Positions 1,701 through 60,983 of a stretch of DNA of 64,000 nucleotides are shown here, in pieces. The stretch lies in IMG/VR virus record IMGVR_UViG_3300043811_000032, positions 1 to 64,000 of that record; one strand, given 5' to 3'. The DNA is from a virus. A program made the position numbers and the translations under genes. How positions within the stretch are numbered: position 1 is the first letter of the stretch; every line of letters starts with the position of its first letter. The notes under the pieces are model-generated. The model had not been told where the DNA came from. It worked only from the letters and a program-made list of their open reading frames with translations, and made no database searches.

Positions 1701-4700
1701 TTACGCCACTCCTCCTACGTGTTCTATCCCGCTCGCCCCTATCGTCGCCGGCTTGCCGCTCGGATCGTTGGGGAAGATAGCCCCGCCACCACCCTTATCC
1801 TTCTCCCAGTCTCGCTTGACTCCCTCCGCATCCCACAGGGCACAGCAGTCGCGGTCGGTCACGGCAAACTGGACCCGAGGCTCGGTGCAGAATCCGTCCT
1901 TCACCCAGCGACAGTTGCCGCAGTTCGTACCCTTCACGCTGGGCGGCAGGTGCACGAAGTCGACCTTCTCTGCCCGCTGTACCTCGTCCGGTGACAGGGC
2001 CTTCCCCATCCGCCAGTCGTAGTTCTCACCTGAAGGATAATCATCGGTGTTCGCTTTGCTCAACGACTTCAACGCATAAAGGGTTCCGCCAGGTTTCTTT
2101 AGATCGTCGATGTCGTGAGCCATGCCCATGCGCAGCATTCGGGAGAGGATGACCTCCATCAGCTTTGGCTCGCTGAACTTGGTGCGCAGCTCCTGCAGGG
2201 ACCGAGGACGCTCACGGAGCATGTTAGTTAGCCAACGTTCGTACTTGTCGTAATCCTCGTGCTCGTCCCACTTGTCTTCCCACGAAGCCTTGTTCATCAG
2301 TCGGTCCGCAGCCGAGTCCGCCTGCTCGAACGAGTCGAACGGTCCGTGCTCGTTCCAGGTGCCGACCGGTCCCAGCGTCCACCAGCCGTCCTCGCGACGC
2401 TCGGTGGAGAAGGGTGAGGTCTTGAACTGTTCTGGGACAGCACTACTGGGGACTCCTCGACGAGACAATTCATCATCTACCGCGGTTCGCCAAGCTAACG
2501 CATAAGTTCCTGCTTCGTCACTCCACTCAGCGTAAGTCATTGCGTCTAAGCGTGCCCCGTTTGAACGTCGACTCTCTAACAATTTGCGAGTGCTCATTTG
2601 ATGAGCTATCTGCCTCTGCTTTGCGTCAGGCTCAACCCTACCTCCGGCCTTTCCCTTCCACCCGCCGATCCACGCTGCCGGCCACGGATGGTCGTCGGGT
2701 GCGGTTCCTGGAAAGTAGTCGACGCTGTCGGGCTCGGGCGGCGGCTGCTCCGGGTAAATCTCGCCGTCCTTGTCCTTGACCTGTGGAGCGGAGCCGCTGT
2801 TACCGTCTTGCCAGCCAGCGGTCCATCCACTTGCTTTGTATGGTTCACCAACTATGTAGGGGTTGTCCTCAGGACGTTCGCCTGACTCGGCGGCTCGGTA
2901 CCCTTCGGAGTACGCCACCTTGATGTCCCGCGTGATCGTAGGATCATCGCTGAACCGCATCAGCGCTGGACCCGGACCCTCAGGACCGTCGCCGACTTTC
3001 TCCTCAGCTCGCATGTCCGGCGTGCCAGGCACCATCACCAGATCACCCACAGCGAACCTGCCCATCCGATCCACGCTCGTCACCCGCACCTTGGCTGTGT
3101 CGCGGTCCGTGCCCTCGACGACGCCGGCCACGGTCTGGTCGGGCGTGGTGAACAGCACTGGCCAGCCATCGCCGCCCACCTTGCTGATCGACTGCGCCTG
3201 CACCGGTGCCTCGTCTAGTCCCGTGCCGCTCTCCGCGTGGCTCAGGTCGGACGGCTGCACACCCTCGGCGGTGCCGGCTGCCCGCACCTGCGGTCGCATG
3301 TCGTCGGCCAGATCGCCCGCTGCCGCCAGGTTCCACGGTGCGTTGCCGAAGCGATCCCCGAGGAGTTCTTCCGCGTTAGGAGCGACCTCACCCGACTTCT
3401 CCGGCGGCTTCCCCGTCGCCAGCGCCTGCCCGGTCTGCGCCTGAGCGATGCGTGCTGCCGACCCCTCGTCGTGCCCCTCGCGGAGCAGTGCCTGGTAGAC
3501 GTCATCGACCTTGGTGCCGGAGGGCTTCGTCACCACGTTGTCACCACTCGGCGTGGCGAACCCGTTGGCGTATAGCGGCGGCTTGGCGGTCTGTGGCGCA
3601 CGCTCCCCGAACTCCTCGGCCGGCGGCAGCGTCGGGTACGCCTGCACGGGGGCCTTGGTCTTGTCGTCCGCCACTTGCACCTTGCCACTGCCGAGGCAGG
3701 TCGGGCAGTTGCTGCCGCCGTCCGGTGCGACGCCCTTGCCGCCGCAGTCCTCGCACGTGACCTCCTTGGCCTCCTTGTCCTGCGGCTCGAAGTAGATCCT
3801 CGGCGTGGCGGTGCTGTTGCCGGGCGGCACATTGACGCCGAGCACGCCGCCTGCGGTCGCCTTCGTCTCTGGCTCCAGCAGCCGCAGCTTGTCGAGGATC
3901 TTGTCGTACTTGCCCTTGAAGCGCATGCCGCGGTCGTCGAGGTAGACCTTGACCTTGGGCTTGTGGTCCTCTATCGCATCGATGTGCCGGTCGAACTTCC
4001 ACTTGGTCAGCCACGCCTCGATCTGCTGCGGCGGGCGGCAGGAGAAGATGACCACCCGCCCGACCTTGGAGTAGAGTTTGGCCACGAACTCCTGAGCACC
4101 CTTCTGCGGGGGTGGCACGGCGTCGCCGAACTCGTCGTCGGTGCCGGCCATCCCGTAGGTGTTGAGCGTGGCATCGAAGTCTAGTGCCACGCTATCGATC
4201 TCGTACTTACCCTTGAACCACCACGGCTCGAAGTCGAGGATGGCGTCGAGGGCCTCGTCGTAGTCACCCTTATACCGCACCATCCGATCGTCGATGTACT
4301 TCTCCGCCCTCGGCTTCTCGGATATGACCTTCGGGTACGGTTGTCCGCCCATCGGGTCCGCTGTGCCGCCGCTGATGAGGTCATAGAGCTGGTATTTCTG
4401 GAGCCACTGGGTCACCTCGTCGACAGGGTGCGCGCTGTTGATCACCGTGCCGACCCGGTGCTCGCGGAGCGCCTCCAGGAACTCCTTGCATCCTTCCAGT
4501 GGCTCCAGGTGTGCGTAGTCCTCGCTCGTGTCCTTGTTCGCCAGCACGCCGCCCACGTCGAGGCACACGAGGCGGGAGACGCCGGGGAGCTTCTGCACTA
4601 TCAGGCTCTTATCCAACACAGAACCCTCTCGGCAAGTTATCGTTCCTGCACTGAATCGCCTGACAGTACCAGGGCGGGCATCTCTAAGCCACCTAGCCGC

Positions 4701-16556: not shown

Positions 16557-16978
16557 TTCGCTACCGGTGGTTGAGGCTTGCGCAGTTCCTTGAGCAGTTC
16601 TTTGAGGTCGGCGATGTCCTGAGCGGACAGTCCATTCTTCGGTGCGACGGTCTGGGCGGGTGGTGCCGGTTGCAGAGTCGTCATCTGCGGGAGTCCTGCT
16701 GGTAACGTGAGCACCTGCGTGGTCAGCGGGGCGGTCGGCAGGATGATGCCGTAGTCGTATCCGTAGCCCTGCCGGTAGTAGCCGTTCCAGTAGCCGGCGG
16801 CGAACCAACGACCTCCGTAGATGCCAGCGGCGTAGTAGGTAAATTGCGGCGCATAGTATCCACCACTGTAGTAAGGTTGGGCATATCCATAGCTGTAGTT
16901 TGCAAAGTAGCCATACCCACCTGCCAAAGAGACCGCAGGGGATATTGCCAGCACCAGCATCGCAACTAGCTTGAACAC
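16553..16978 (-). CDS. Secreted Tyr/Gly-rich protein with C-terminal helix
   Basis: 141 residues with a signal peptide (MFKLVAMLVLAISPAVSLAG). Mature residues about 20-80 are Tyr/Gly-rich (GYGYFANYSYGYAQPYYSGGYY); the C-terminal helix (LSAQDIADLKELLKELRKP) resembles the helix before haem motifs in planctomycete cytochrome-like proteins, but no CxxCH is present. Function unknown. Confidence 0.6.
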   Translation of the reverse strand: MFKLVAMLVLAISPAVSLAGGYGYFANYSYGYAQPYYSGGYYAPQFTYYAAGIYGGRWFAAGYWNGYYRQGYGYDYGIILPTAPLTTQVLTLPAGLPQMTTLQPAPPAQTVAPKNGLSAQDIADLKELLKELRKPQPPVAK

Positions 16979-17583
16979 AGAGACCTCCTCTTTCTTCGCT
17001 TAACCAGAGAAGCCATCAACTGCAACTCCTCCGGCGAGAACAAGTGCCGCCAAAGAATCCCCCGCTTGATCCCAGAGATGGGGCACGTCGATACAGAAAA
17101 GTGTCTGGCTATATCCTCTAGATTTCTACCAGCGACGATCATCACAAATGCTTCTCTGACTTGTTCCTCGGTCAGTTTAGCACTGGCGTTTTCTACTCCT
17201 ACCTTGATTGGAGGGTCTTTAGGAGTCCCATGACGCAGGGCGTCTTCCCTGTTTTGTAACTGAGTACCCCAAGCCAGATTGTCTTTCGTATTGTCTAACT
17301 TGTCGCCATTTAGATGCCTGCACTCTTGCCCATCTGGGCACGGTCCGTGAAAAGCCAACGCTACTAACCTGTGGACGGTGATCGAACGCCTTCTGCCGTC
17401 TGCTGTAGTAAGTCCGACGTGTAGATACTGCTTTCCTTTAGTTCCTTGCAGACCCGGCTTAAGTCGTTTCCACCAGTCTCTAAATCCGTGCCTAGCGTTC
17501 TTACAGGTCCATACTGACCCGTCCGCACCAACCCTGTAACCCGGAAATCCTAATGACTCCAAGTGTCTGTAGACTACTGGCAT
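16966..17583 (-). CDS. HNH homing endonuclease, free-standing
   Basis: 205 residues from ATG 17583 (AGGAGA 7 bases upstream). Residues about 70-115 carry the phage HNH pattern TVHRLVALAFHGPCPDGQECRHLNGDKLDNTKDNLAWGTQ (split: TVHRLVALAF, then CRHLNGDKLDN and NLAWGT). A NUMOD4-like N-terminus and a C-terminal helix-turn-helix-like region (LTEEQVREAFVMI...DIARHFSVS) complete it. It would nick or cut DNA and spread itself between related phages. It lies between two secreted-protein genes with its own -10 box and an RBS-occluding hairpin. Confidence 0.8.
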   Translation of the reverse strand: MPVVYRHLESLGFPGYRVGADGSVWTCKNARHGFRDWWKRLKPGLQGTKGKQYLHVGLTTADGRRRSITVHRLVALAFHGPCPDGQECRHLNGDKLDNTKDNLAWGTQLQNREDALRHGTPKDPPIKVGVENASAKLTEEQVREAFVMIVAGRNLEDIARHFSVSTCPISGIKRGILWRHLFSPEELQLMASLVKRRKRRSLCSS

Positions 17584-17591
17584 CGTCTTCT

Positions 17592-17629
17592 CCTGGAAAG
17601 TTGCCGTGGATGCCGTACCGCTTTCCAGG
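17592..17629 (-). promoter_or_regulatory. Hairpin overlapping the ribosome-binding site of the homing endonuclease
   Basis: CCTGGAAAG (17629-17621 on minus) and CTTTCCAGG (17600-17592) form a perfect 9-bp stem with a 20-base loop. The last CCAGG of the stem runs directly into AGGAGAAGACG and the ATG at 17583. Pairing would mask part of the ribosome site, so translation would be low unless transcription starts inside the hairpin. Confidence 0.6.
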
Positions 17630-17660
17630 GACAGCACAGCACCACACGGCGTAGAAGGTT

Positions 17661-26767: not shown

Positions 26768-27778
26768 TTACTCCTCGAATGTATGTTTCACAGACTCGTA
26801 AGAGAACTCCTCGGGCCGCAGGAACATGTTATCTCGGATGAACGCTCGCAGCGGTCCAGCAGTCAGGCAGTTACCCTCGGAGTCATACAGCGACGGATCG
26901 TGCGGCAGCACTTGCTGACATAGCTCATAGCCGAAACCTACCCGTTTGCCCTCGTCGAAGATCCGCCGCCGGAACTCGTCCATTTCGATCTTGAACGTCA
27001 ACGGCTTGCCGCGGAAGCCGACGCTGGCGCCGTCCATGCTGTGCTCGTGCCTGACCGTCGGCTTGCCCATCAGCAGGAACCGGCGACCGATGGCGGCGGT
27101 CATGAACGTGAAGATGCTCTCGCCCGTGTCGCTGGCGAACACGTCCGGCAGGATGCGGCCGTAAGCCTGCCGCAGATCCTCGCTGAACGCCTGGCTGTGC
27201 AGGTTGATGGTCCGACCGACCGGGATCACGAAGTCCTCACCCCGTGGTGGTCGCAGGCCCCACCACTCGTAGCCGGTGTCCTCGTCGACGCCGACGGCAA
27301 CCATCGCGTTCTGCGAGTGCAGCATCCCTTCACACGGCACGTCGTGTAAGAACCCTCCATCACTAATCTCGACGTTGGACATCGCCACGACTTCGGAACG
27401 GATACGTTGGTGCAAGTTACGGAAGACTCCAACACGCTCGTCCTCCTCGTGCGGCCACGGCCCGGCGCCGATGTCCACGCCACTGTCGAGGTAGACATAG
27501 CCGTCGAAGGCTCCCCACCGCTGCACGCACTGGTCCACCGTGTGATTACAGGTCGTGAAGACGGGCAGCACCTGATCGATCCAGTTGAAGCTGACCCGGT
27601 TGCCCAGCTTCTGCCGCAACACGCTCTTGCAGGTCCGCGTCGAACAGCAGCCACTGACCACCACCCGCCAGCCGTCACCCTCTTGACGCAGGCACGACTC
27701 GATGTGACGGACGTAGCGATCGAGTCGTTCCAATCCGCGCACGCCACATACGTTGAAGATACAGAGAAGTTTATTCAC
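26768..27778 (-). CDS. Glycosyltransferase-like protein (GT-A type)
   Basis: 336 residues from GTG 27778. The N-half follows a GT-A layout: LLCIFNVCGVRGLERLDRYVRHIE, WRVVVSGCCSTRTC, then FDGYVYLDSGVDIGAG, where DSGVD replaces DxD. The C-half has EWWGLRPPRGEDFVIPVGRTINLHSQ and TVRHEHSMDG. Probably transfers a sugar to a glycan built by this cassette; donor and acceptor unknown. Confidence 0.55.
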   Translation of the reverse strand: MNKLLCIFNVCGVRGLERLDRYVRHIESCLRQEGDGWRVVVSGCCSTRTCKSVLRQKLGNRVSFNWIDQVLPVFTTCNHTVDQCVQRWGAFDGYVYLDSGVDIGAGPWPHEEDERVGVFRNLHQRIRSEVVAMSNVEISDGGFLHDVPCEGMLHSQNAMVAVGVDEDTGYEWWGLRPPRGEDFVIPVGRTINLHSQAFSEDLRQAYGRILPDVFASDTGESIFTFMTAAIGRRFLLMGKPTVRHEHSMDGASVGFRGKPLTFKIEMDEFRRRIFDEGKRVGFGYELCQQVLPHDPSLYDSEGNCLTAGPLRAFIRDNMFLRPEEFSYESVKHTFEE

Positions 27779-27957
27779 TTGGCCGGCTCCCATGGTGAGA
27801 CGTTCTCTGGCACAGTCAACACCACAGTCCCCTTCTTGTCCGTGTCCAGCGCTATGGCTTTAGCGTTAGGGCGATACTCCTCGCCCCAGTCTGCCAGCTC
27901 CACCTTGGCGGTAGGATCACATTGCATTAACCGACTGATCAGTTCCATGACAGTCAC
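27775..27957 (-). CDS. Small conserved-type protein, unknown
   Basis: 60 residues from GTG 27957 with GGAGAG 5 bases upstream. The opening VTVMELISRLMQCDPTAKVELADW matches a widespread short family in phages and bacteria that begins xTVxELIxxLxxxPxDAxV. It overlaps the end of the interrupted radical SAM gene by 41 bases. Confidence 0.55.
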   Translation of the reverse strand: MTVMELISRLMQCDPTAKVELADWGEEYRPNAKAIALDTDKKGTVVLTVPENVSPWEPAK

Positions 27958-29718
27958 TGGTGCTCTCCTTCGGTTTGACTCTGTATCGCTGTGACCGCCG
28001 CCCGTGCCACATCGTCTCGATGCCCCACTGAATCGGGTCGCCCTCAGGCTTGGAAATCCGGCTCATCTGCTCAGTAACGTGGGGGAGCAAGTACGGGTAC
28101 TCTTCCTTAATGAACCCCTTGATCTCTTGCCGCAACTTGCTCGGGTCGCGAGCTAACCGCAGCCAGCTCGCTTCCTCCATCGGCCAAGTTACATCACCTA
28201 GCTCAGGATCGTAGTGGTCCCAGCCCTTGCCGTCGTACCCCTTCTGAGCGTGTTCCCAAGCCTTGCTGTACTCCTCACCGAAGAGGCTATGCTTGCACAA
28301 CCCGTCGCTCCTCCAGCAGTAGTTAGCTAGCGACTCGTAGAAGTCTGTGAACGTCTCACCGCTCTGTCTTGCCAGCAGGTTGGTCAGCCCGAACGCATGG
28401 AACGTCAGCATCAGCCAGTTCCACACGTAGACCTCGATGATGTCGTCGCCCGGCAGCGTCCTGGTCCGCCTGACCATCCGCTCGTACTCGCCCGTCGTTT
28501 CGCCCGGCTTGCTGTGGGCCACGAACATCGGGCTGTCGAACGTCTCGATGCCATGCTCGGTCAGGTACGCCGGATCGTTCATCGGGGCGTTGACGAACAC
28601 CGAGCAGTTCCACGTCATGATCGCCGGTGCCGGGTCCAGTGCCGCCAGCGTCTCCCACGTCCGCTTGAAGCTCTCGGCCGTCTCGCCGGGCAGGCCGAGG
28701 ATCAGCTCCGTGTAGCTCCGCAGGCCCTCGGCGTCGAAGCGGTCGATCAGTCCCTTGAAGCTGTCAAACTTCACGTTGCTCCTCTTGACGATCCGCAAGA
28801 CATCGGAGTCGAGGCTCTGCACAGATAAACTCACACCCCGTAGGAGTCCAGATGAGGCGAGTACCCTGGCTATCGGGATGATCCTCTCTGAAGAGGATTT
28901 CACCCATGTCAGCCCCAGTGCCTCGGGATATCCGGTTCGCTGCTTCGTCTCCGCGAGCTTCGTCGCTATCCACTGGTCACGCTCCTGGAACATCCCGAAG
29001 TTGGCGTCACAGCAGTCCACGTACGCGATCTCGTTGTCGCCGAACCACTCGATCTCCGCCTCAAGCCGCTCCTCGGAGAACTTCCGCACCTTGCTCTTCG
29101 TGGCCGATCCCCAGTCGCAGAAGGCTTCCTTCAGGTACAGGCGAACGGACATCCCCGGTTGGATTCCCAGGATGCCACCCACCTGTACCTACTCCTTTCT
29201 GCTAGCTTCCACATCAAGCCTGTTGTGAACGGCGACGGGATGCTTTCGAGGTCTTTGATACGTTCGCGCGGCAGTCCTTTACCTTCTCTCGTTTCGATAC
29301 CAAGGACCAGTCCACCACCTCGCCTGTAATAACTATCGGCTTGGAGAACTTCCGATAATGAAACCTCGCCTTCCCCGTGGACGAGTACATCAACATAGCT
29401 ATGCCGTTCAAAGAAACCTTCGGCATGGTCGGGCACCTCCGGGCCGCCGAACACCACTTTGAGCCGCGGGTTCAGTTCCTTGGCCCGCCTCGCCAGTCGG
29501 TTCGTCGCCCGCCAGTTCCAGCAGTAGCACGAGCACAGCAGCCAGTCGGAGTCGCGGCACGCCTCGGCGTCGGCGTCGATGTTCCGCTTGTCCACGAACG
29601 TCGGCTGCAGGTCCATGTCCACGAACTGCAGCGCGTAGCCGACCACCGTGGCGATGCTGCAGGGCAAGTGCAGCTGGTCGCCGAAGAAGACGCCGTACTG
29701 GGAGGAGGAGACTTTCAT
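27917..29718 (-). pseudogene. B12-binding radical SAM enzyme, interrupted inside the CxxxCxxC motif
   Basis: Two frames together make one B12-binding radical SAM protein. Frame 1 (29718-29131) holds the Rossmann-type B12 domain (VVGYALQFVDMDLQPTFVDKRN, LKVVFGGPEVPDHAEGF) and ends SNRGCPFACT-stop. Frame 2 (to 27917) resumes FCDWGSATKSKVRKF...CCDANFG, the usual continuation of this family, and ends with a helical tail. Removing 11 bases (29123-29133, TGAAGGAAGCC on minus) would restore CPFACTFCDWG exactly. Enzymes of this class methylate or rearrange sugars or unactivated carbons. As written it cannot make an iron-sulfur cluster unless ribosomes skip the insert; it may be a recent pseudogene. 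Confidence 0.8.
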
Positions 29719-29721: not shown

Positions 29722-29949
29722 TCACCTTGCAGGTTCAACGATTGGCGTCTGTCCGCGAGATACGATTCGTCTTGCCTGTTGCATTGCCTCTTCCTTGGTC
29801 TCCGCATAAACGGATTGAAGGAAGGTTTTCATATCACCGCGGTTCGGGTTGAAGACCATCTCAAAAACGTTCCACTTCATCAACTTCGACCGGTCACCAT
29901 CAGCCTTTCGCCACACCTCCGGCGACTTGCTCACTTGTACCCAGCTCAT
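29722..29949 (-). CDS. Small protein, unknown
   Basis: 75 residues from ATG 29949. Trp/Lys-rich (MSWVQVSKSPEVWRKADGDRSKLMKWNVFEMVFNP) with a C-terminal helix (YAETKEEAMQQARRIV). No family. Confidence 0.5.
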   Translation of the reverse strand: MSWVQVSKSPEVWRKADGDRSKLMKWNVFEMVFNPNRGDMKTFLQSVYAETKEEAMQQARRIVSRGQTPIVEPAR

Positions 29950-30881
29950 AGTCCTAGCTCCTTGAACACCTTGGCCCACCGTTCCGGGTAACTCTCGCAG
30001 TCGTGATCCCGCCGCTGCCGTTCCAATGCACCTCGGGACAATGCCGGCAACTGCTCGGGCAGCCGGCTGCACCGCTCCACCAGATCGTCGAAGTCCCTGG
30101 CGATGATGCCGTTCACGCCGTCCTCGATCAGCTCCCGCAGTGCCCAGTGCTCCAGGCCGACAGTCGGGATGCCGAAGCTGGCCGCGTAGGGCACGCTGAT
30201 GAAGTGGGCCTTTGAACTCGGCAGGAGCAGCACGTCGGAGCGGCGGTGGATGTCGTCAAGTTCGGCGTCAGACAGATAGTCGTGGTGCATTTCAACGTCG
30301 TCCGGCCACACCGCCTTGCTGATCAGGTCCGCATCCTTCGGTGCTCGCAAAATCAGCTTGCAATGGAACTTTGTATGAAGCCGGATGAAGAGATCGCAGA
30401 CCAGTTGTCCGCCCCGGTCCTTCCACGCCTTCTGCTCCCTGTCGTTGTGCGAGCCCCAGAAGAGGAACGTGATTAGAAATGCCGGTCCAGTCTTGTATAA
30501 GAAGTCCTGCCTCGGCACCCCCACCGGCACGTGGAACCTCGGCTTGCTCGGCAGCAGCGTGGCGAACTCGTCTAGGGTCTTCTTCGTGTGGCTGCACACG
30601 CCGAGGCATGCCGGCTGGCGGTCGATGTTACTAACGAACTTGGCATCGCAGTAGTCAGTCAGCCAAAACGTGCTCTCCATGTAGAGAAGAAACGGACGAC
30701 CTGCCATAACGTAGTTGGCGATCCGCTCTTGGCTCCTGCTGTTCTCCAGTGCCAGTATGGTTACGTCCGCATGCCCATCGTCATGCTTCGGCAGCCACTC
30801 GAACTTCTTCGGCTGACCGCTCCGCATGTAGCGATACAGCGTGTGCTCCGGCAGTTGCGCGTCGATGGTGACCTTCAACAT
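29946..30881 (-). CDS. GT-B type glycosyltransferase (family 4-like)
   Basis: 311 residues. The C-half has the retaining GT-B nucleotide-sugar signature: LRAPKDADLISKAVWPDDVEMHHDYLSDAELDDIHRRSDVLLLPSSKAHFISVPYAASFGIPTVG, then a Glu-rich GVNGIIARD. The N-half is a shortened Rossmann domain. It probably adds one sugar to a lipid- or protein-linked acceptor. The N-terminal domain is divergent. Confidence 0.7.
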   Translation of the reverse strand: MLKVTIDAQLPEHTLYRYMRSGQPKKFEWLPKHDDGHADVTILALENSRSQERIANYVMAGRPFLLYMESTFWLTDYCDAKFVSNIDRQPACLGVCSHTKKTLDEFATLLPSKPRFHVPVGVPRQDFLYKTGPAFLITFLFWGSHNDREQKAWKDRGGQLVCDLFIRLHTKFHCKLILRAPKDADLISKAVWPDDVEMHHDYLSDAELDDIHRRSDVLLLPSSKAHFISVPYAASFGIPTVGLEHWALRELIEDGVNGIIARDFDDLVERCSRLPEQLPALSRGALERQRRDHDCESYPERWAKVFKELGL

Positions 30882-40786: not shown

Positions 40787-40959
40787 GGCTGCTCTTCCGT
40801 AGAGATGGCGAACACTGTTCCAGACAACTTGGCCGTCTTGAAGTTCTCGATGAGCACTTGCTTCACTGCCTCTGTCTGCTTCAAGTCGCTGATCTTAAAC
40901 GGCCCCACCGACTGCAGACCGTGTTCCTGTGTCAGGATGCAGTACGTCACTAGTACCAT
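40783..40959 (-). CDS. 58-residue protein overlapping two genes
   Basis: ATG 40959 has AGGG 8 bases upstream, and the stop at 40785-40783 overlaps the next ATG (ATGA). It overlaps the last 65 bases of the upstream radical SAM gene in another frame. The product (MVLVTYCILTQEHGLQSVGPFKI...TVFAISTEEQP) has no motif. The coupled junction supports it. Confidence 0.45.
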   Translation of the reverse strand: MVLVTYCILTQEHGLQSVGPFKISDLKQTEAVKQVLIENFKTAKLSGTVFAISTEEQP

Positions 40960-42583
40960 CACCGTTGCCCTCCAGCAGGTTGCGTTGCAGTCGCTTGCCG
41001 TTCATCGCCTCGACCTGTGCCTTCGCGTCGGTGCCGAACTCCCGCTCGACGAGTGCCAGGTACTCGGGACGGGAGAAGTAGAAATTGTGAGCGTAGTCCC
41101 GGAATCGCAGCACTTGTCCGCTGGTTAGATGCTTCGTGGCCATCGGAGTGCAGTCGCGGCTGTGCTGGCTGAACGCGCTCCACTCCAGACCATGGTGGCT
41201 GGGTGTCTGCTTCCACAGGGCACTGCCTGGATATGGCATAGCGCTGTAGAAGTTGGCCCACGGCGTGTTCAACATCGTCGCCAACTTCAACGTCTGATCC
41301 ATCGACGTGTGGTCGTCCTCGGGTAGACCAAAGATGTAGTTGGCGAGCACGTGAATGCCAGCCGCTTGGATGCGGTCAACGCACTGACGGATCTGATCAT
41401 CGCCACCCTTGTAGTCTTTGTCCACGCCTGCTCGCACGTTGGTCGCTGCCGACTCGATGCCCAGCGCCAGCCAGCGGAAGCCGGCACGACGCATCCGTTC
41501 CAGCAGCCCACGGTCGTTGGCCGTATCCACCCGTGCGTACGCCCATACATTCAAAACTTCAGCTGGATCCTTGATCCGCTGCATGATGGCGTCGCACACG
41601 CCCTCGACGTGGCGCTTGTTCAGGACGAACATCTCGTCGGCGATCTTGATGTTGCCGACACCGTGATCGTAGTGGAGCTTGGCGATCTGCTGGCCAACGT
41701 GCTCGGGGCTCCAGGTGCGGTAGCTGTTGGGCACCTCAGCACCCGGCTTGAACTTGCCGGCCAGCTTCAGTGCGACCTTCTCGCCCTCCTTGAACGGCGA
41801 TTGTATACAGCAGAAGCTGCAGGCGAACGGACAACCAAGACTGGTGTAGATGGCGGCGTAGGGCGAGCGGGTTCTTGTTGCCTTGTTGCCTTTGTACGTT
41901 ATCCCACCAGCATCTTGAGCAAAGTACTCCAATCTATGAGCGACATCCCAAGTAGGTGAGGTCCAGCCGTGCCAATTGTGACAGCGATACTTACCGTAGC
42001 TCTCGATGCCGTGCATCGCCGGCATGTCCGCGTTCACGTCCGTCACGTTCGGGGCGCTGGTCGTCTCGAAGTAGGTCCGTGCGGCGAACGGGCTGGGACC
42101 GTAGAAGCCGATGCCACGGACGTCGTGATGGTTACGCCCTTGGAGCAACTCCGCGATGCTGGTGCAGCCCTCGCCCGTGCACACGTAGTCAGCACCTGAC
42201 TCCCGCAGCGTGCGGTCGGGCAACGCGGCGACGTGTCCGCCTACCATCACCACCTTGGTCGCCTCGTCCCACGCCTTGGCTGAGTAGCTGATCCGGTACG
42301 CCTCGGGCATCGTCTGCGTGCTGGCCGATGGGTTCTGGCCGTAGCACACAACGGCTGTGAGTCGGGGCTTGCGGTCCGCCGCCACCTTGCCGGCGTCACC
42401 AGCGTCCAGCCCCTCGGCGTTGGCATCGAGGATCTCCACGCTGAAGCCCTTGCGACGGACGTACTCGGCGATCAGACCGGCCCACACAGGCGGCTCTATC
42501 GCGGTCAGGTCTTCGGCGAGGTCTTGATAAACTTCTCGCCTGCCTCCCGGTGAGACTAACAACAAGTCGATTTGCTTGGTCAT
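40895..42583 (-). CDS. B12-binding radical SAM enzyme
   Basis: 562 residues from ATG 42583 (ATGA overlap). The B12 domain spans about 1-180 (LLLVSPGGRREVYQDLAEDLTAIEPPVWAGLIAEYVRRKGF, VMVGGHVAALPDRTLRES, GEGCTSIAELL). The radical SAM core has TSLGCPFACSFCCIQ, supplying the CxxxCxxC cluster. The C-half keeps RRAGFRWLALGIESA and GIHVLANYIFGLPEDDHTS. Such enzymes add or shift carbon groups on sugars or lipids. It is intact, unlike the copy at 27917-29718. Confidence 0.9.
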   Translation of the reverse strand: MTKQIDLLLVSPGGRREVYQDLAEDLTAIEPPVWAGLIAEYVRRKGFSVEILDANAEGLDAGDAGKVAADRKPRLTAVVCYGQNPSASTQTMPEAYRISYSAKAWDEATKVVMVGGHVAALPDRTLRESGADYVCTGEGCTSIAELLQGRNHHDVRGIGFYGPSPFAARTYFETTSAPNVTDVNADMPAMHGIESYGKYRCHNWHGWTSPTWDVAHRLEYFAQDAGGITYKGNKATRTRSPYAAIYTSLGCPFACSFCCIQSPFKEGEKVALKLAGKFKPGAEVPNSYRTWSPEHVGQQIAKLHYDHGVGNIKIADEMFVLNKRHVEGVCDAIMQRIKDPAEVLNVWAYARVDTANDRGLLERMRRAGFRWLALGIESAATNVRAGVDKDYKGGDDQIRQCVDRIQAAGIHVLANYIFGLPEDDHTSMDQTLKLATMLNTPWANFYSAMPYPGSALWKQTPSHHGLEWSAFSQHSRDCTPMATKHLTSGQVLRFRDYAHNFYFSRPEYLALVEREFGTDAKAQVEAMNGKRLQRNLLEGNGDGTSDVLHPDTGTRSAVGGAV

Positions 42584-42828
42584 TCTGATGCTGGCCCGCC
42601 GCAAGAGTAGCGATGCACTTCTACGTCAACACCCAAAGCCTTCAACTCATCGGCTTGTTCCGTCGCCTGTTTCTCGTCGGTATAGGCATAATCTTCCATC
42701 TTGATCGGGTTCTTCACCGTTGGCTGCATTGGTAGAAAAGCCAGTGCCTCACGACTCCACACCAAACTACCATAGCCGATGACGTAGATATCTGGAGGTA
42801 GTTCCTCGCCAATCTTCTCCTCGCTCAC
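42580..42828 (-). CDS. Small protein, unknown
   Basis: 82 residues. IYVIGYGSLVWSREA resembles only the opening of gamma-glutamyl cyclotransferases; the rest is too short for that fold. No family. Confidence 0.5.
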   Translation of the reverse strand: MSEEKIGEELPPDIYVIGYGSLVWSREALAFLPMQPTVKNPIKMEDYAYTDEKQATEQADELKALGVDVEVHRYSCGGPASE

Positions 42829-50365: not shown

Positions 50366-50872
50366 CCTGTTTCGCCCGCTGCCCGATGGCGTGGTCGGCT
50401 TCACCACCACCCCTACGCCGTGCCCGTTCTTCTCCGCCTCGATCTTCGCCGCTCGGCCATTGCGGTACTCCTCGATCTGTGCCGCCCGCAGCTCCGCCGC
50501 CTTCGCCTTCGCCGCCTTGCGCAGCTCACGCCGGATCTCTTTCGCCTCCAGCTTGGCTCGTGCCTCGTCCTGCCGAGCCCGCCGCTTCTCCGCGATGCTG
50601 CGCAGGCGCTTGTCCTGCAGGTTCTGCGGCTCCTCCCAGTAGGCTGTCGCCGAGACCTGCGCGACGATCTCCCGCACCCGCAGGGCATCGTCGTTGAAGT
50701 ACTCCACCACCTTGTCGCAGTGGGCGATCAGCCGATGCCCCGGTTGGTAGCAGCCGAGCAGGTAAGCCAGCAGCTCCGCCTCGTCCTCGGTCACCTGCAG
50801 CGGGCGCCACTGTGGCTGGAGGACGTAGCCCGTGGTCTGCTTCTTCTGGTGCTTGCGCTTCTTGCGTGGCAT
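50171..50872 (-). CDS. Basic helical protein overlapping convergent gene
   Basis: 233 residues from ATG 50872 (TGATG). Residues 1-20 are very basic (RKKRKHQKKQ), the middle has EAELLAYLLGCYQPGHR and a long charged helix (AEKRRARQDEARAKLEAKEIRRELRKAAKAKAAEL). The last 65 residues overlap the plus-strand sigma-like gene. Function unknown; a nucleic-acid role is possible. Confidence 0.5.
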   Translation of the reverse strand: MPRKKRKHQKKQTTGYVLQPQWRPLQVTEDEAELLAYLLGCYQPGHRLIAHCDKVVEYFNDDALRVREIVAQVSATAYWEEPQNLQDKRLRSIAEKRRARQDEARAKLEAKEIRRELRKAAKAKAAELRAAQIEEYRNGRAAKIEAEKNGHGVGVVVKPTTPSGSGRNRSKAEQARVAQEDVVQQPVEGGAGHLEQPSSTAPPAVGTAGADLGGNEVQHLPVEERDGDGEGVG

Positions 50873-53112
50873 CACTTCCTCTTGGGTATGAGGTGGCGAT
50901 ACGCAGGATACTTGTACAGGGCTCCCTCTATCCGTGGCACAGCGTTACAGCGCAGATATCGCTCCGATAGGTCGATCCCTACCGAATGTCGGCCGTGGTC
51001 GATACTGACCTCGCACGTAGTACCGCTCCCACAGAAGGGGTCCATAACTACGCACGGCACCACGTCGTAGTCGTAGCCGCAATGGCAACCCGGCTTCCAG
51101 CCCACCGTCTTCACCTCGACGCCGGCCACCGAGTTGGCGCAGCTGTTGCCCGTGCCCTCCTCGCCGGTCCGCTTGACGTAGTCGTTGGGTCGCTCCCGCT
51201 TCAGCTTCTTCTCCTCTGTCACCCGCTGCCACGGTGTGCCGCAGAAGCCGCAGGCGCCCTTCGCACTAGTGCCGGCGAGGATGCACGGCTCGATCAGTTT
51301 AGGTGGAAACGTGGCGAAGTGGGCACCAGGGTATCCGCCTGCACTAATAAGCCATACTGACCTCTTGTTCCGATTTGGTACACGGCCTAATACCGCTGAG
51401 GCGTGGTCTTCGTTGTGCGACACCTTCCCGTCGAACTCAGTGGACGCTTGCTTCGGAGCAAGCGTTCGAGGAGGTAAGTTAGCTGTGTCTGCCGGCTCCT
51501 TGATCGCCTCCGCGTCATAGAAGTAGTCCATCCCCTTCGTCAGCAGGAACACGTACTCATGCGCCTTGGTGCAACGGTTCCGCACGCTCTCGGGCATCGG
51601 CGACGGCTTGCTGTTATGGGTCAACACACCCGAAGCCAGTGCGAGCAGGTGTGGCTCGTCCTCAACGCCCAGTTCGTACACGTATCGCGACTTCGCCTTG
51701 CGGACCTCCACAACCTCCAGCCGGTCCTTCTCGTTCCAGTGCCCGCTTCGTGCCTTCCTGATCTCCCCCTTGTATCCTTTCCGCGGTTTGCCTTTGTATA
51801 TCCCGACACACGGATTCAATGTCAAGCAGTAGCCAAGCCGAGCGCAGACTGTCCGCAGATCCCTTTCCAAGTTAGCGTTCCTTGTGAACCCGAGTCGCCA
51901 GCGAACACCACCGTCGCTACCGTCTCCACTCAGGTAGCCGTCCAGCATCGCCTCCAAAAAGTCGTTGCCATACCGCCACACTACCGGCGAGAAGCCCTTG
52001 TCGTAAGCATCGACACCACTTACCAACTCCCTGATGACAGCACAGATTAACTTGCCATATACTCGGATGGTCTGATTGTTGCCGTCTACAGTCAACGTGG
52101 CAGAACCGCCGTAGTCCTCAGCAATCTTCTTTACAAACTCCCACCTGCTTACTTCGTTGACATGGCCCGACAGGCTGAACTTGTCCTTCCTATCTCGCGT
52201 AACACCGCTGCCTTCGGCGATGTAGAGCCCTGCCAACCATGCCGCATCAAGCCCTACGTGTGACGGATCTCTTGGTTCCTTTGGTGCCGGCAGGCGACAG
52301 CCTTCCAGTACATCGCCAACCCTAATGTCTTTGGATTCAACAAGACCACGATCCTTTACTGGGAACCTATGCGTTGGCGTGCAAGAAATGCGCTCACCAC
52401 TTCTAAGCACTAGCGTCCTCTCATCTCCGCACCGTGGCGACTTGCTCATCCCCTTGAGCTGTGTCCACTTATTGCCGTTCCATAGTTTGACCGTGCTCGG
52501 TTTGAGCCGGTACAGATCCTTGAGTGTCATTGGCATGTCGCCCTTCTGCGTGCGAGCGTAGACCCACGTGCCACCACTCAGGCACCAAATTATGTCCTGT
52601 CGCAGCACCCATCCATCAGCTTGCAACGCGAGGGCGACGCGCCACGGGACGCCGACGAGGTTGCCTGATCTTAAGCCGCTGGTGCCTCCGTCTTTTGGCC
52701 ACGAGCCGGCCGATTCCGACTGCTTATCGTTCTCGAACTTCTTGCCAAAGTAGCGTTCGTTGAACCCGCTTTTCACGTCTCCACCACCTCCCGCTCCGCC
52801 GTAACTGTCACCTAAATTAAGCCATAGCACCCCGTCGTCCCGCAGCACCCGCCGCACCTCGCGAAACACCTCGACCATCGTGGCGACAAACTCCTGCGGT
52901 GTCTTCTCACTGCCGATTTCCTGATGCTTGCTATCGTGCCCGTCCTCTAAGTACGAGCGGAGGCCCCAATAAGGCGGACTAGTCACGACACAGTGAACGC
53001 TCTGGGTCTTGAGCCCGCGCAGGACGTCTGTGACGTTGCCGTGATATATCTTCACGGTCTCTTGGTCCGAGGTCATCCAGTAGGGCGGCACTGCCCTGAC
53101 GTGTATCGGCAT
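50872..53112 (-). CDS. DNA methyltransferase (N4/N6 class beta) containing an intein
   Basis: 746 residues from ATG 53112. Extein motifs are in class-beta order: motif IV TSPPYWGLRSY early, motif I DPFCGSGTT at the end. SPPY fits N4-cytosine or N6-adenine methylation. The intein follows DIIW; after splicing DIIW joins SKPSPMPESV, the usual methyltransferase sequence. A CGFCG zinc pair lies in the C-half. It would protect phage DNA from restriction or mark it. It may act on the same DNA as the hypermodification block downstream in the opposite direction of transcription order. Confidence 0.88.
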   Translation of the reverse strand: MPIHVRAVPPYWMTSDQETVKIYHGNVTDVLRGLKTQSVHCVVTSPPYWGLRSYLEDGHDSKHQEIGSEKTPQEFVATMVEVFREVRRVLRDDGVLWLNLGDSYGGAGGGGDVKSGFNERYFGKKFENDKQSESAGSWPKDGGTSGLRSGNLVGVPWRVALALQADGWVLRQDIIWCLSGGTWVYARTQKGDMPMTLKDLYRLKPSTVKLWNGNKWTQLKGMSKSPRCGDERTLVLRSGERISCTPTHRFPVKDRGLVESKDIRVGDVLEGCRLPAPKEPRDPSHVGLDAAWLAGLYIAEGSGVTRDRKDKFSLSGHVNEVSRWEFVKKIAEDYGGSATLTVDGNNQTIRVYGKLICAVIRELVSGVDAYDKGFSPVVWRYGNDFLEAMLDGYLSGDGSDGGVRWRLGFTRNANLERDLRTVCARLGYCLTLNPCVGIYKGKPRKGYKGEIRKARSGHWNEKDRLEVVEVRKAKSRYVYELGVEDEPHLLALASGVLTHNSKPSPMPESVRNRCTKAHEYVFLLTKGMDYFYDAEAIKEPADTANLPPRTLAPKQASTEFDGKVSHNEDHASAVLGRVPNRNKRSVWLISAGGYPGAHFATFPPKLIEPCILAGTSAKGACGFCGTPWQRVTEEKKLKRERPNDYVKRTGEEGTGNSCANSVAGVEVKTVGWKPGCHCGYDYDVVPCVVMDPFCGSGTTCEVSIDHGRHSVGIDLSERYLRCNAVPRIEGALYKYPAYRHLIPKRK
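51613..52584 (-). mobile_element. Intein with DOD (LAGLIDADG) homing endonuclease, in methyltransferase
   Basis: 324 residues from Cys1 (CLSGGTWVY) to the final VLTHN, with Ser as the +1 residue. Block B is TPTHRFPV, and the two DOD helices are WLAGLYIAEGSG and MLDGYLSGDGSDGG, with intact acidic residues. So both splicing and homing look functional. Insertion is between IW and SKP in the active-site region, a typical conserved site. Confidence 0.9.
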
Positions 53113-56100
53113 TAGCCTTCTCCCATTACTTCGCGGTACAACCCCGCCATCCTTCGGGTAAGTCTCCACCGAGTCCTCAGATTGACTCCGTTCTTCAGCG
53201 GCTGATGCGGCTCGCAGGCACCGATCCGCTTGAGGAACTTGAGCAGCCCGCGTTCCTTGTCCTCTCCTTCGTGAGTTAGGTGGATGAGTGCAGCCACCTC
53301 CAGTCCCATGTCCCCCGCCGCTGCCAAATGCCGGATGATCTCGTACGTGCGGCCCCGAGCCGTATCCATCGCCACCCGTCGCACGCGGACCATCACCTCG
53401 CCGTCAATGGCGGTGCGGTTGAGTACGATGGCGAGGCAGTACGCCAGCTTGCCGATCTGGGACGTGAGCCGAGCACTCATCTCTCGGCTTGTCTCCTCGT
53501 CCTGCTTCTTGCTAGGGCGGGCACGCAGGTACGCCACGAACTTGGCGTAGGCCATGCAGAGCCTTGCCGCCTCGTCGGTCATCGTGATGTGGGGTAGTAA
53601 CCTACCCACGTTCTGCCGCAGCCACTCGACGTAGCCGCCGGTGATGCGCTTGGCGGCGATCATTTCCGGCGTGTCGGTGGTCTCGACCTTGCCATCCACC
53701 TCGTATAGGTTCATGCGCACCTGGTTGATCTTCCGCCAGCTGATCTCGTCCTCCAGCGAGTCGTCGATCACGTCCATGATGCGGCAGCACAGGAACCGCT
53801 CGCCCAGCTCACTGGTGTCCAGCGCACGCAGCGCCCCCGTACCGCAGAGTATCCAGGCGAAGCGGATACCCTCGTAGTCGCGGGACATCTTGTTGTTGAA
53901 AGCCGACCTACCCACCGTGTCGTACAGGTCGCGGGCCTGCCCCAGCACCTGATCGCGGTTAGGTAATGTCAACACCGTGTCGCCATCTTTGACAACGAAC
54001 GCCTTGTCGCGGAGCTTGTTCACCAATCCGAGGTCCTCCGTGCCCTCCTTGTCCGTCTGGTAGCCGCTGTAGAAGCCGCGGAACGTGCTCTGGGCCTTGA
54101 CGTACTCGCGAGCCACGCTAATCGCCTCGCACAGGATACTCTTGCCGGTAGACGGAGGCGACACCGCCATGATCCAGATCTGGTCCCCCACCACCTTCAC
54201 CGAGGCGACCGCCGCCATGATGATGCTGAAGCCGTAGTCCAGCCCGTCCGTCCACTTCATCGCCTTGCGCCACGCCTGCACGCAGTCCCGCCAGTTGTCG
54301 CAGGGCTGGGTCGTGAGTAGGTCGCGGTGTGGCCCGGCCTCGCTCTTGACCAGCCACTCGGCAGGCACCGGCTCGATCCGGTCGTTGAGCCTCTCCTGTA
54401 GTTCGATGCGCTCCTCCGCCGTCGAGCCCTGCGTGAGCCAGTCCCGCACGTCGTAGCCGCTCGGCAGCTCGGGGTCGTAGCCGTCCGCGCCCCAGCGAAT
54501 GTACCTGATCTCCTTGGGTGGTGCCTCCTGGCTCGCCAACAGCCGGGCGACGCGCTCCATGCCGTCTAGTCCGGCCTTGGTGACTCGTCCCTGATGCTCG
54601 CGAGGATGGTCGTTGTCGAACAGTAGTACCACCGTCTTGCCTGCCAGCAGCGAGGCCCAGCTCGGGTTGAACACGCTACAGCCCGGCACCGCCAGCACGT
54701 TCGCCCGCTGGCCGAGTCCCGCACTGCGAGCCGCCTGTAGCGTCTCCCACCACGCCATCCCGTCCCACGGCCCTTCACAATTTCCAGACACCACCGCCTT
54801 GCCGTTCCGGCGGACCACCACAAACCCAGTGGAGACAGTCACGCAGTAGACCTTACCTTTGTAGTGCTCTCTAGTCGGTTTATTGACAATCACTCTCCAA
54901 GGTTTCTTGATCATACAGAGGACGTACTGGTCGTTGCAGTTCTCCTCCTCGGACGGTATGCGGTTGGTACCGCTGGAATAGCCGGAGATCACAGCCATCC
55001 TTGAGATGACGTCTGCGTTGGCAGCGTTGGAGGTAAAATACCGGATACAGTTCTGGCCCTTGTCGCCGTCCCAATGAGGAATCTCCTCAATGATAGTCTG
55101 GCGGGTCTTGAGCGGCCAAGCTAGCTCCTTGCCTGTCCATATCTTCTTAGGGCAGCATTCCAATAAGAATTGAGCCTCCGGCTGTCGCTTGTCTATGAGG
55201 ATAGACTCAGACTCGTCCACGCTCCCCCAGTGGTGAGTCTTGAACTTTATGCCAAGTTCGTTGAGCAGGCTCTTTAGCCGCTCTTTCTTGCGATCCTTGT
55301 AGAAGCTGAACTCGATCTGGAATCCGCCTCGGATACAACCGTCGGCTACGAAAGCCGTCAACAACTTGGCTTGCGTTTCTGATGGACCTGCTTCTTCCCC
55401 CACCATAGTACCGCTGACTGGCAACTGGAAGCCGGCACCAACGTCTTGGGCCTTTCTGACTTGGCTCTTGGTAGCCTGCTGCCTTTTGCACAGCATCCTG
55501 TGGTCTGGCGTAACCAACAGGTCACACCAGCGGCTGGCGAAGTTGACCATCTCTCCGTGGAAATCTAGGACCTGCTTGGCTCTAGGCCGCTCGAACCTTA
55601 TGCTCTCGTTCTCTGGTTTGTAGGAGGCCACTCTGTCCTCCTCTCCCAATTCCTTGAACAACATCCATCCACGGTTAGTAAGGATCTCTGTGTCGTCCGA
55701 GTAGCAGACGTAACACATCTCCTTGCTCGCGTCGAACAGCGGCACGCCATGAAGCCCGTGTCCAACGTGCTCTCCGCCTGATAGAGTCGTAGGAAGCAAC
55801 TTCATTCTCTTACTTGTATAGTCTCGCACGTAGCGGTACAGCTGGACGAGGTTGCCCTCGCGGTTGTACCCCGGCAGCGCGTAGTCAAGAGTGAGCGGAT
55901 GCCGAATAGCTCCCCACTTGACGAGCGTGTCGACACTGAGCAGCTTGCGATCCTCGGCCAGCTCCTCCAGATCCGTCGGCGGTTGTGCCGCAGCCCACAG
56001 CTCGCGTAGGAACGTAACCTGGTTACCAGCACGTCCGCAGACCTTACAGTCCCAGAGCCCGCTCGCTGTTGCCACTCGCCATTTGAGCTTACCGCAGAAC

Positions 56101-56201
56101 GGACACTCTGCCTCCGACTGGTCCTGCCCCTCCCACGACAGGTCCATCCCGTGTTGGACGTATGCTTTCAATACCGCAGGAACGGTCTTGACGACAGGCA
56201 T
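53112..56201 (-). CDS. Primase-helicase with TOPRIM domain and intein
   Basis: 1029 residues from ATG 56201 (TGATG). N-terminal zinc ribbon (CPFCGKLKWRV...WDCKVCGRAGNQ), then primase TOPRIM sequence with YVCEGPWDGMAWWE (interrupted by the intein before Cys) and VVLLFDNDHP (the acidic metal site). The C-half is a P-loop helicase, VSPPSTGKSIL as Walker A, with a CGTGALR sensor-like loop. It primes and unwinds DNA for the family A polymerase nearby. Closest by layout to phage bifunctional primase-helicases; the helicase subclass is uncertain. Confidence 0.85.
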   Translation of the reverse strand: MPVVKTVPAVLKAYVQHGMDLSWEGQDQSEAECPFCGKLKWRVATASGLWDCKVCGRAGNQVTFLRELWAAAQPPTDLEELAEDRKLLSVDTLVKWGAIRHPLTLDYALPGYNREGNLVQLYRYVRDYTSKRMKLLPTTLSGGEHVGHGLHGVPLFDASKEMCYVCYSDDTEILTNRGWMLFKELGEEDRVASYKPENESIRFERPRAKQVLDFHGEMVNFASRWCDLLVTPDHRMLCKRQQATKSQVRKAQDVGAGFQLPVSGTMVGEEAGPSETQAKLLTAFVADGCIRGGFQIEFSFYKDRKKERLKSLLNELGIKFKTHHWGSVDESESILIDKRQPEAQFLLECCPKKIWTGKELAWPLKTRQTIIEEIPHWDGDKGQNCIRYFTSNAANADVISRMAVISGYSSGTNRIPSEEENCNDQYVLCMIKKPWRVIVNKPTREHYKGKVYCVTVSTGFVVVRRNGKAVVSGNCEGPWDGMAWWETLQAARSAGLGQRANVLAVPGCSVFNPSWASLLAGKTVVLLFDNDHPREHQGRVTKAGLDGMERVARLLASQEAPPKEIRYIRWGADGYDPELPSGYDVRDWLTQGSTAEERIELQERLNDRIEPVPAEWLVKSEAGPHRDLLTTQPCDNWRDCVQAWRKAMKWTDGLDYGFSIIMAAVASVKVVGDQIWIMAVSPPSTGKSILCEAISVAREYVKAQSTFRGFYSGYQTDKEGTEDLGLVNKLRDKAFVVKDGDTVLTLPNRDQVLGQARDLYDTVGRSAFNNKMSRDYEGIRFAWILCGTGALRALDTSELGERFLCCRIMDVIDDSLEDEISWRKINQVRMNLYEVDGKVETTDTPEMIAAKRITGGYVEWLRQNVGRLLPHITMTDEAARLCMAYAKFVAYLRARPSKKQDEETSREMSARLTSQIGKLAYCLAIVLNRTAIDGEVMVRVRRVAMDTARGRTYEIIRHLAAAGDMGLEVAALIHLTHEGEDKERGLLKFLKRIGACEPHQPLKNGVNLRTRWRLTRRMAGLYREVMGEG
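54780..55706 (-). mobile_element. Intein in primase-helicase
   Basis: 309 residues from CYSDDTEILTNRGW (classic block A) to GKAVVSGN followed by Cys as +1. Block B is LVTPDHRM. The endonuclease region (LLTAFVADGCIRGG, IEFSFYKDRKKERL) has a degenerate LAGLIDADG helix (AFVADG), and the second is unclear. Splicing residues look intact. The insertion interrupts the TOPRIM EG motif, so activity needs splicing. Confidence 0.88.
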
Positions 56202-56749
56202 CAATAGCTCCTTACTTCCCACACGATCATCCGACGTTGGAGTACGCCACAGTGCACGCGATAGTGCGAGAACTCGACCACGTGGTCCTCGTAGGTATCC
56301 AGCAGCTCCATCAGCCAGTCGTAGTCGCCGGGGTCGAGCGTTGTCCGCAGTAACGAGGTAGCAATTATACCGTAAACCTCGGCCGAGCGGGTGGCTAAAG
56401 CGGGCCGCATCGGCATCGGCAACGTGCTGTAGAGCAAATAGAGCCCGCGATTGCTCTGCATCACCTCCCCTTGCAGCACCGTCGTCGCCGTGGGCGCCAT
56501 CTCGCTGCAGTACCAGTCCTGCGGATCACTCATCCGTAGCCACAGTCCTCGCACCGCGGAGTAGCTCTGGTCATAGTACGTCGCCCCAGCCGCCACCCGA
56601 TTGCGCAGGTGGTAGCTGCCCATCTGGTTAGCCCCACTCTCAAACGCAACGCGGTCGTGCCACGTGTTGGTGCGGTTGCCGAACTCCAGCGCTTGGTATC
56701 GCTGGGTGAAGTCCGTTTTACTTAGCACCGGCGGTCTGCTTGGCCACAT
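56201..56749 (-). CDS. Unknown protein in DNA-modification block
   Basis: 182 residues from ATG 56749, chosen for GGGAGG 7 bases upstream. It overlaps the thymidylate synthase homologue by 32 bases. Motifs include RYQALEFGNRTNTWHDRVAFESGANQMG, WLRMSDPQDWYCSEMAP and YDWLMELLDTYEDHVVEF. No family recognised. Neighbours suggest a nucleotide or DNA role. Confidence 0.55.
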   Translation of the reverse strand: MWPSRPPVLSKTDFTQRYQALEFGNRTNTWHDRVAFESGANQMGSYHLRNRVAAGATYYDQSYSAVRGLWLRMSDPQDWYCSEMAPTATTVLQGEVMQSNRGLYLLYSTLPMPMRPALATRSAEVYGIIATSLLRTTLDPGDYDWLMELLDTYEDHVVEFSHYRVHCGVLQRRMIVWEVRSY

Positions 56750-59015: not shown

Positions 59016-59249
59016 ATGGAACTCAACCGCGCTCAGCTCTGCCTGCTCCGCAGTATCAAGTCCACCGGCTTCCCTGCCGAGTTACTGCAGATCTTCCTCG
59101 GTCGCTGCGGTGCCACCGTTGCCGAGTGGCAAGCCCTGCTGGATGCCGACTTGGTTACTGCCGGCAAACGTGCCGAACGTGGTCGCTACGTGATTACCAA
59201 GGCTGGCACCACCGCTTACAACCACCGCCCGAAGCACATCTACTTCTAG
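59016..59249 (+). CDS. Small winged-helix-like protein
   Basis: 77 residues from ATG 59016. RAQLCLLRSIKSTGFPAELLQIFLGRCGATVAEWQALLDADLVTAGKRAERGRYVITKAGTTAY has the helix-wing pattern. It lies 11 bases after the terminator and ends 4 bases into the convergent radical SAM gene. No promoter of its own is clear; read-through of the terminator could express it. Confidence 0.55.
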   Translation: MELNRAQLCLLRSIKSTGFPAELLQIFLGRCGATVAEWQALLDADLVTAGKRAERGRYVITKAGTTAYNHRPKHIYF

Positions 59250-60211
59250 CCCATCTCCCACGGCTGCAGTACCGGCAAAGTATAACAACCTTTGCCGAGT
59301 GCTGTGGCTATCGCCCGCTCATCCTCTGCTGTTGGCAGCGGCAGGCTCTTCTTACCCTTCTTGTCCGGTAGCAGCCCCGGTCGATAGCTCAGTGCATCGC
59401 AGCCGGCACACGGACCGAAGTCACGCAGCCCGTGGTACAGCTTGCGCCGTGCCGCTCGCATTGCCGGCCCCTGCCAGATCTGCTCTAGTGTCTGTTGCAC
59501 CACGTTGCCACACTGGTACTCACCGCGCCAGTCGTTGCAGCATACTGCCACGCTACCATCCCAGCGTATGCTCAGCTCCCTGAACGGTTTGGCACACCGC
59601 TTGCCCATCGCGTTGTCGTTCTTGGGGCTGCCGCAGCCCGCGTGGTTGTTCAGACTGGCGTGGGTGCCCTTGGTCGCCTCGGCGATGTCCTGCACGATGA
59701 CCAGGTCGTGCTCGTCTGGCTTGCGGCGCCGGTGCGGGTTGCCCGACTTGTCTGCTGGGTACATCGTCGGCTCGTGCTTGCCGCTGTACCGCTGCAGGAT
59801 CTTGGGCACGATTTGCACCCCTTCGTAGGCATCCAAGGCCAGCACGTTCAGGCTCTGCAGGGCAGTGTCGATTGTCTCCGTCGGTGTCCTCAGGAACCCC
59901 GCCCCGTTGCTGGTCATCATCAGGTGAGCACGCTTGGGCAGTCGTCGCCGGAACGTGCCAAGTATCTCCAGCATCTGTGGGTTAGCACTAGGCTCACCGT
60001 GCATAGCAAACTCGATGCGTGGCAGCCAATTGTCCTGCTTGAGCAAGTACACAATCCGCTCCGCTAGCAACACAGTCATGAACTTGTAGTCGTTGTCCTT
60101 ACCGCGGATGCCGTTTAACCCACAGAACTGACAGCGTAGCTGACACCCTTCAGTGAGTTCTACTTGTAGGGCGAACGGCGGTTCCTGTCGCTCAGGATTG
60201 TGAAGAGGCAT
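59246..60211 (-). CDS. SPASM-domain radical SAM enzyme
   Basis: 321 residues from ATG 60211 (GGAG upstream). Radical SAM cluster CQLRCQFCGLNG (CxxxCxxC); FAMHGEPSANPQM is the SAM-binding GE motif; SPASM Cys are in RCAKPFRELSIRWDGSVAVCCNDW and FGPCAGCDAL. Such enzymes alter peptides or unusual carbon centres. Here it is coupled to a TET-associated-type glycosyltransferase and HMUDK-family proteins, which suggests a step in base hypermodification. Confidence 0.85.
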   Translation of the reverse strand: MPLHNPERQEPPFALQVELTEGCQLRCQFCGLNGIRGKDNDYKFMTVLLAERIVYLLKQDNWLPRIEFAMHGEPSANPQMLEILGTFRRRLPKRAHLMMTSNGAGFLRTPTETIDTALQSLNVLALDAYEGVQIVPKILQRYSGKHEPTMYPADKSGNPHRRRKPDEHDLVIVQDIAEATKGTHASLNNHAGCGSPKNDNAMGKRCAKPFRELSIRWDGSVAVCCNDWRGEYQCGNVVQQTLEQIWQGPAMRAARRKLYHGLRDFGPCAGCDALSYRPGLLPDKKGKKSLPLPTAEDERAIATALGKGCYTLPVLQPWEMG

Positions 60212-60983
60212 ATGCTTTGCTCCAGTAGACAACCACGTCGGTACGCTCCTCCATCCCCTGCCAGTTCTTCGTCTGCTTCTTGACCACCTTGACGAACCCG
60301 GGATGTAGCTCGGCCAGCCGCTCGGCTGCTTGGCTCTGCATCGCTGTTGTCCGGTACTGACTGCATCCGCCTGGCAGATTGCTGCCGCCTTGGTTCCAGC
60401 ACCATCGGTAGATCATCGCGTTGGGCAAGCCCTTGCGCAGCATCTGCAGGGTCAGATCGAAGTCCTCCATAACCGGCAACCGCCCTGCCTCCACACCGGC
60501 TTGCCGCACCTGCTCCAAGTCATACATGTAGGTATTGAACATGCGACGACACTCGGCCACGTCTTCGGTCTCTCGGTTGTTCCCCTGCCGTGCCGACAGT
60601 CCCACATGAGCGTACTTGTCTAGCAACAATCGCCAGTACTCAAACAGCTCGGTGATCATCTTGCTCTGCGGTTCCAGACTTACCAGCTTGGGAGACGCCA
60701 TATCCGGTCGGTACGCGAACGTCATGTCGTCGTCGATCATCGCTAGGTAGCGAGTCTGACACGTCTCCATCAAGTACTTCCTAGTGCCGCTGATGCCCTT
60801 GACGGTGCTTGGGACATACCACAACGGTGCCAGCGCTCCCCATGACCTGTACGACGGCGTCTCGTTGTTGGGAATAGCCAGCTTGGTGACCCTGAGCAGC
60901 TCATTGGGCAACTGCTCCAAGGTTGTCTGCTTGGACGATCTGCCCGAGCTGGGGATCACAATGGTAACGTCTTCAAGCCCCAT
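60192..60983 (-). CDS. TET-associated-type (DNA base) glycosyltransferase, GT-A
   Basis: 263 residues from ATG 60983. TIVIPSSGRSSKQTTLEQLP opens the domain; LAMIDDDMTFAYR holds the DDD metal site; VMEDFDLTLQMLRKGLPNAMIY and NQGGSNLPGGCSQYRTTAMQ match the TET-associated glycosyltransferase family of phages. That family adds sugars to hydroxymethylated bases in DNA. No TET oxygenase is in this window, so the substrate may be 5-hydroxymethyluracil or a further modified base. Confidence 0.7.
   Translation of the reverse strand: MGLEDVTIVIPSSGRSSKQTTLEQLPNELLRVTKLAIPNNETPSYRSWGALAPLWYVPSTVKGISGTRKYLMETCQTRYLAMIDDDMTFAYRPDMASPKLVSLEPQSKMITELFEYWRLLLDKYAHVGLSARQGNNRETEDVAECRRMFNTYMYDLEQVRQAGVEAGRLPVMEDFDLTLQMLRKGLPNAMIYRWCWNQGGSNLPGGCSQYRTTAMQSQAAERLAELHPGFVKVVKKQTKNWQGMEERTDVVVYWSKAYASSQS

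Follow-up and report, generated by a model that had tools for sequence, protein, structure and literature searches.

The window analysed here spans the opening 64 kb of a virus record that is 98,691 bases long. It carries a KedN5-like radical SAM gene whose reading frame is broken by 11 extra bases within the CxxxCxxC motif. We consider it quite likely that a recent frameshifting insertion of these 11 nt inactivates what is an accessory phage gene. The frame break in the sequence is beyond doubt: the minus strand reads TGT CCG TTC GCC TGT ACC TGA AGG AAG CCT TCT GCG ACT GGG, so that the insertion puts a TGA in frame directly after ACC, inside the motif.

The interrupted gene

The following features describe the gene and the site of the break.

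29131..29718, minus strand: upstream fragment, 195 aa, ATG at 29718, stop TGA at 29133-29131
27917..29122, minus strand: downstream fragment, 401 aa, one open frame with no stop across 401 codons
29123..29133, minus strand: the 11 extra bases TGAAGGAAGCC, missing from homologues
29120..29132, minus strand: 5-bp hairpin GAAGG-AAG-CCTTC, part of it beyond the insert; a pattern that occurs nowhere else in the window

The upstream fragment holds a B12-binding domain (PF02310, E 3.5e-10) and the first two cysteines of CxxxCxxC, its frame ending in NRGCPFACT before the stop (full reading SWESNRGCPFACT-TGA). The downstream open frame (29182-27917), which is offset from the upstream one and carries FCDWGSATK, encodes the remainder of the radical SAM domain with the third cysteine (PF04055, E 1.6e-7), followed by a C-terminal domain. 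Both Pfam matches are above the gathering score, and the layout of a B12-binding domain followed by a radical SAM domain is thus present, one domain per fragment, while an intact CxxxCxxC in a single open frame is absent from the window gene, a TGA following CPFACT. Against the NCBIfam model NF033712 (KedN5), the upstream fragment corresponds to profile positions 63-209 (E 2.2e-27, 95.6 bits) and the downstream fragment to positions 210-369 (E 1.5e-42, 145.7 bits). Since these two segments abut, the extra bases fall exactly between the adjacent family positions 209 and 210, which, together with the frames, confirms what had been read from the sequence alone, namely an 11-nt insertion with a stop inside CxxxCxxC.

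Neither fragment comes near the curated cut-off of NF033712, which is 700 bits, and the gene is a relative of that family that falls short of membership by this cut-off. It resembles the KedN5-family methylcobalamin-dependent radical SAM C-methyltransferases in its B12-binding and radical SAM layout and is unlike them in scoring far under 700 bits and in having an interrupted cluster motif. The gene product is probably a KedN5-like, B12-dependent radical SAM methyltransferase, and the gene is part of a glycan/nucleotide-sugar cassette. Two other radical SAM genes lie on the minus strand of the window: one at 40895-42604, which is HpnJ/BchE-like with a B12 domain and has a homologue near the KedN5-like gene of another phage (L002, see below), and a third, shorter one at 59246-60232.

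By a codon-usage model, the switch of frame would lie at 29190, not at 29133. We rejected this position because homology shows that the upstream frame codes between 29190 and 29133; the placement is a limit of the model.

As the sequence-only reading had noted, the insert is flanked by CCT repeats, and because CCT is found on both sides the insertion has four equivalent placements (29135-29125, 29134-29124, 29133-29123 and 29132-29122); microhomology of at least 3 nt is expected for about 4% of random 11-mers. The hairpin that had been proposed does exist, but it is within chance expectation: about 10% of random 11-nt sequences inserted here would form a perfect 5-bp stem, and the folding energy around it is average (z of +0.69 and +0.10 against shuffles). 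An intein or intron reading of the insert was also rejected, the insert being only 11 nt long and no intein match being present here in the record.

Homologues at the motif

Comparison with related phages, which had been suggested as a check, revealed intact homologues without the insertion. The closest is a 598-aa phage homologue (L002), which is 57-58% identical to the downstream part and reads NRGCPFQCTFCDWGS uninterrupted across the motif. A further 78 loci came from two wider scans (76 from viruses, including one on the contig of L002 itself, and two from genome contigs). Nearly all of these cross the motif in one frame, the exceptions being loci with in-frame inteins (described below), and an 11-nt gap at the motif was found neither in L002 nor in any of the 78. 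The exact 21-mer adjoining the site has no matches in any other viral contig of the set searched, from which near-identical records may be missing. Searches with the upstream fragment alone yielded no homologues, nor did those with the neighbouring glycosyltransferase (29949-30881). Among annotated phages the downstream fragment had no match and positions 20001-42000 no near DNA match, and L002 had distant matches only, at about 22% identity.

Across 13 intact homologues 66 columns never vary, and the two fragments match 65 of these, the single exception being a change of T to S upstream of the break. Since these columns are kept and the downstream frame has no stop, the insertion is the only visible damage, and the lesion is therefore either recent or the product is still made. 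The lack of decay in the downstream part accordingly counts against inactivation to some degree, as it is expected also if a full product is still made.

A related phage without the gene

A related phage, G001 (records L090, L102 and L103), has an exact 127-nt repeat at its ends, though it is classed as linear; the genome therefore looks complete, and probably is. Its identity to the window phage is 53% for the portal, 63% for the epimerase and 53% for the second radical SAM protein. The two cassettes have in common this second radical SAM gene, the epimerase, paired transketolase-like genes, a methyltransferase and glycosyltransferases. G001 has one radical SAM gene only, of the other kind, and the KedN5-like gene is absent. 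At the equivalent locus, beside the homologue of the glycosyltransferase-like gene at 26768-27793, the place of the broken gene is taken by a gene for a homing endonuclease:

L102:9182-9928: GIY-YIG/NUMOD3 homing endonuclease gene

Because G001, which looks complete, does without it, the KedN5-like gene is dispensable, and it is accessory in this phage lineage. No frame breaks appear in the alignments of the genes compared between the window and G001, so the contig as a whole is not riddled with errors.

The gene thus has two of the marks of a pseudogene, namely intact homologues that do not have the lesion and a related complete phage that does not have the gene. Together with the single lesion and the 65 invariant residues of 66, this supports the original suggestion that the gene has just died.

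How the insertion may have arisen

A single 11-nt insertion would have recently entered the KedN5-like gene inside CxxxCxxC, so that translation would stop at the TGA after CPFACT and yield a truncated product of 195 aa that lacks the full cluster-binding motif. Judging from the frame break, the intact relatives and the single lesion, the gene would no longer be active in the genome that was sequenced. Microhomology or fold-back templated repair is the probable origin of the insert, because CCT flanks it on both sides and GAAGG reverse-complements the CCTTC beside it. One further copy of nine of the insert bases, TGAAGGAAG, lies inverted at 29816-29824, about 690 bases off. We rejected this copy as the donor of the insert: 0.5 copies are expected in the window by chance, and it is an anecdote.

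The break itself might have been cut by a homing endonuclease, because related genes hold inteins 1-7 nt away and the phage has HNH genes and an intein. In one homologue (L056:41-940) an in-frame intein with an HNH_3 domain precedes the second cysteine of CxxxCxxC, and in another (L075, about 3560-4660) an in-frame intein with a LAGLIDADG_3 domain is located just past that cysteine. Their positions, transferred to the window, are as follows.

29136..29140, minus strand: equivalents of the homologue intein sites (L056, 29140/29139; L075, 29137/29136)

The insertion is thus 1-4 nt from the L075 site and 4-7 nt from the L056 site. Inteins related to that of L056 are also found in L086 and L087, which belong to another radical SAM family, again at this position of the motif. 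These phage inteins lie in the CxxxCxxC motif, as the insert does, at 1-7 nt from it, and differ from the out-of-frame 11 nt in being in frame, about 0.8 to 1.1 kb long, and equipped with a splicing domain and an HNH or LAGLIDADG domain. Among the papers searched on inteins in radical SAM genes, none deals with this motif site. Another in-frame intein, in the KedN5-like gene at L047:2983-6132, lies downstream of the radical SAM domain, and Pfam recognises no endonuclease in it.

The phage has three HNH_3 endonuclease genes:

16966-17637 of the window, minus strand: HNH_3 endonuclease gene
G000:65128-65253: HNH_3 endonuclease gene, outside the window
G000:71212-71343: HNH_3 endonuclease gene, outside the window

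Its DNA methyltransferase ORF (50872-53169, minus strand) contains an intein, CLSGGTW...VLTHN/S, with a Pfam match under the curated cut-off and borders set by eye. A second probable intein, CYSDDTEIL...VVSGN/C, was seen by eye, from sequence only, in a primase/helicase-like ORF (53112-56222, minus strand). By a rough and post hoc estimate, about 1% of insertions placed at random in this 1.8-kb gene would land no more than 7 nt from either intein site. It is conceivable, though rather doubtful, that the insertion is a scar left by the repair of a homing endonuclease cut.

Alternative explanations

One may also consider an assembly or population artefact, with the gene intact in the phage itself and the 11 bases stemming from a chimeric join or from a minority variant that the assembler picked. 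This would fit a metagenomic virus record seen only once, with its adjoining 21-mer in no other viral contig, and the fact that neither fragment has further lesions; we nevertheless regard it as unlikely, since the 11 bases lie outside any homopolymer, unlike the usual read error, and since other genes of the contig align to the relative without frame breaks. Far less probable is a split gene that keeps some function, its downstream frame being translated alone from GTG 29182, or a -1 shift that would give CPFACTLKEAFCDWG (C-x3-C-x6-C). Both frames are open across 50 nt, and the GTG is preceded by a good and well-placed Shine-Dalgarno-like site:

29180..29198, minus strand: putative Shine-Dalgarno-like AAAGGAG, 9 nt before GTG 29182, the start of the downstream frame

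Such sites were observed four times against 1.1 expected by chance; this one can nevertheless be due to chance, because the upstream frame codes for a conserved stretch here. Moreover, the third cysteine would either be on a separate chain from the first two or be wrongly spaced, the C-x3-C-x6-C spacing occurs in no relative, and no slippery heptamer is visible.

The sequence-only reading had also offered ribosomal skipping of the insert, in the manner of T4 gene 60. In such a bypass the ribosome would take off at the ACC before the TGA, pass over 11 nt and resume at TTC, with the cluster motif restored. In T4 gene 60, bypass relies on a 5' stem-loop and on a signal in the nascent peptide as well as on matched codons (PMC5009743). 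In both cases a stop in frame immediately precedes a short extra block and a hairpin is close by, and here the flanking sequence is conserved on either side as well. Of the features of gene 60 bypass, however, only the stop beside the take-off codon is clearly present, and it says little, as frameshifting inserts soon meet stops anyway. The motif would survive with one landing only, from ACC to GCC, which is unmatched and whose first position would be a G-U pair, so the mismatch already cited as weakening bypass holds; with each of the matched pairs (GCC/GCC, TTC/TTC, GGA/GGA, TCC/TCC, GAA/GAA and TGG/TGG), residues in the region of the motif would be lost or gained. Whereas the gene 60 gap is 50 nt, that observed here is 11 nt, with no matched codon pair that restores the motif and with no relative that shares it. 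The hairpin, ordinary in energy, would hold the landing codon while the take-off codon ACC is outside the GAAGG/CCTTC stem. Upstream of the site no KKYK-like stretch was seen, and a basic RSRYR lies where gap-free homologues are also partly basic. With no usable matched codons, an ordinary hairpin and no gapped relative, we find bypass the least credible of the explanations and extremely improbable. If true, it would be a bypass of 11 nt with unmatched ACC/GCC, far shorter than the 50 nt of gene 60, that restores an iron-sulphur motif.

Implications

Taken as a frameshifted accessory phage gene, this is an ordinary case. It serves mainly as a warning that short repeats, a small hairpin and a stop where a frame breaks are no evidence of bypass. 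Of more interest than the broken gene is that inteins occur repeatedly in the CxxxCxxC motif of phage radical SAM genes, in at least two families, at two adjacent positions, and with both HNH and LAGLIDADG endonucleases. This recurrent intein site offers a testable reason why damage might gather at the motif.
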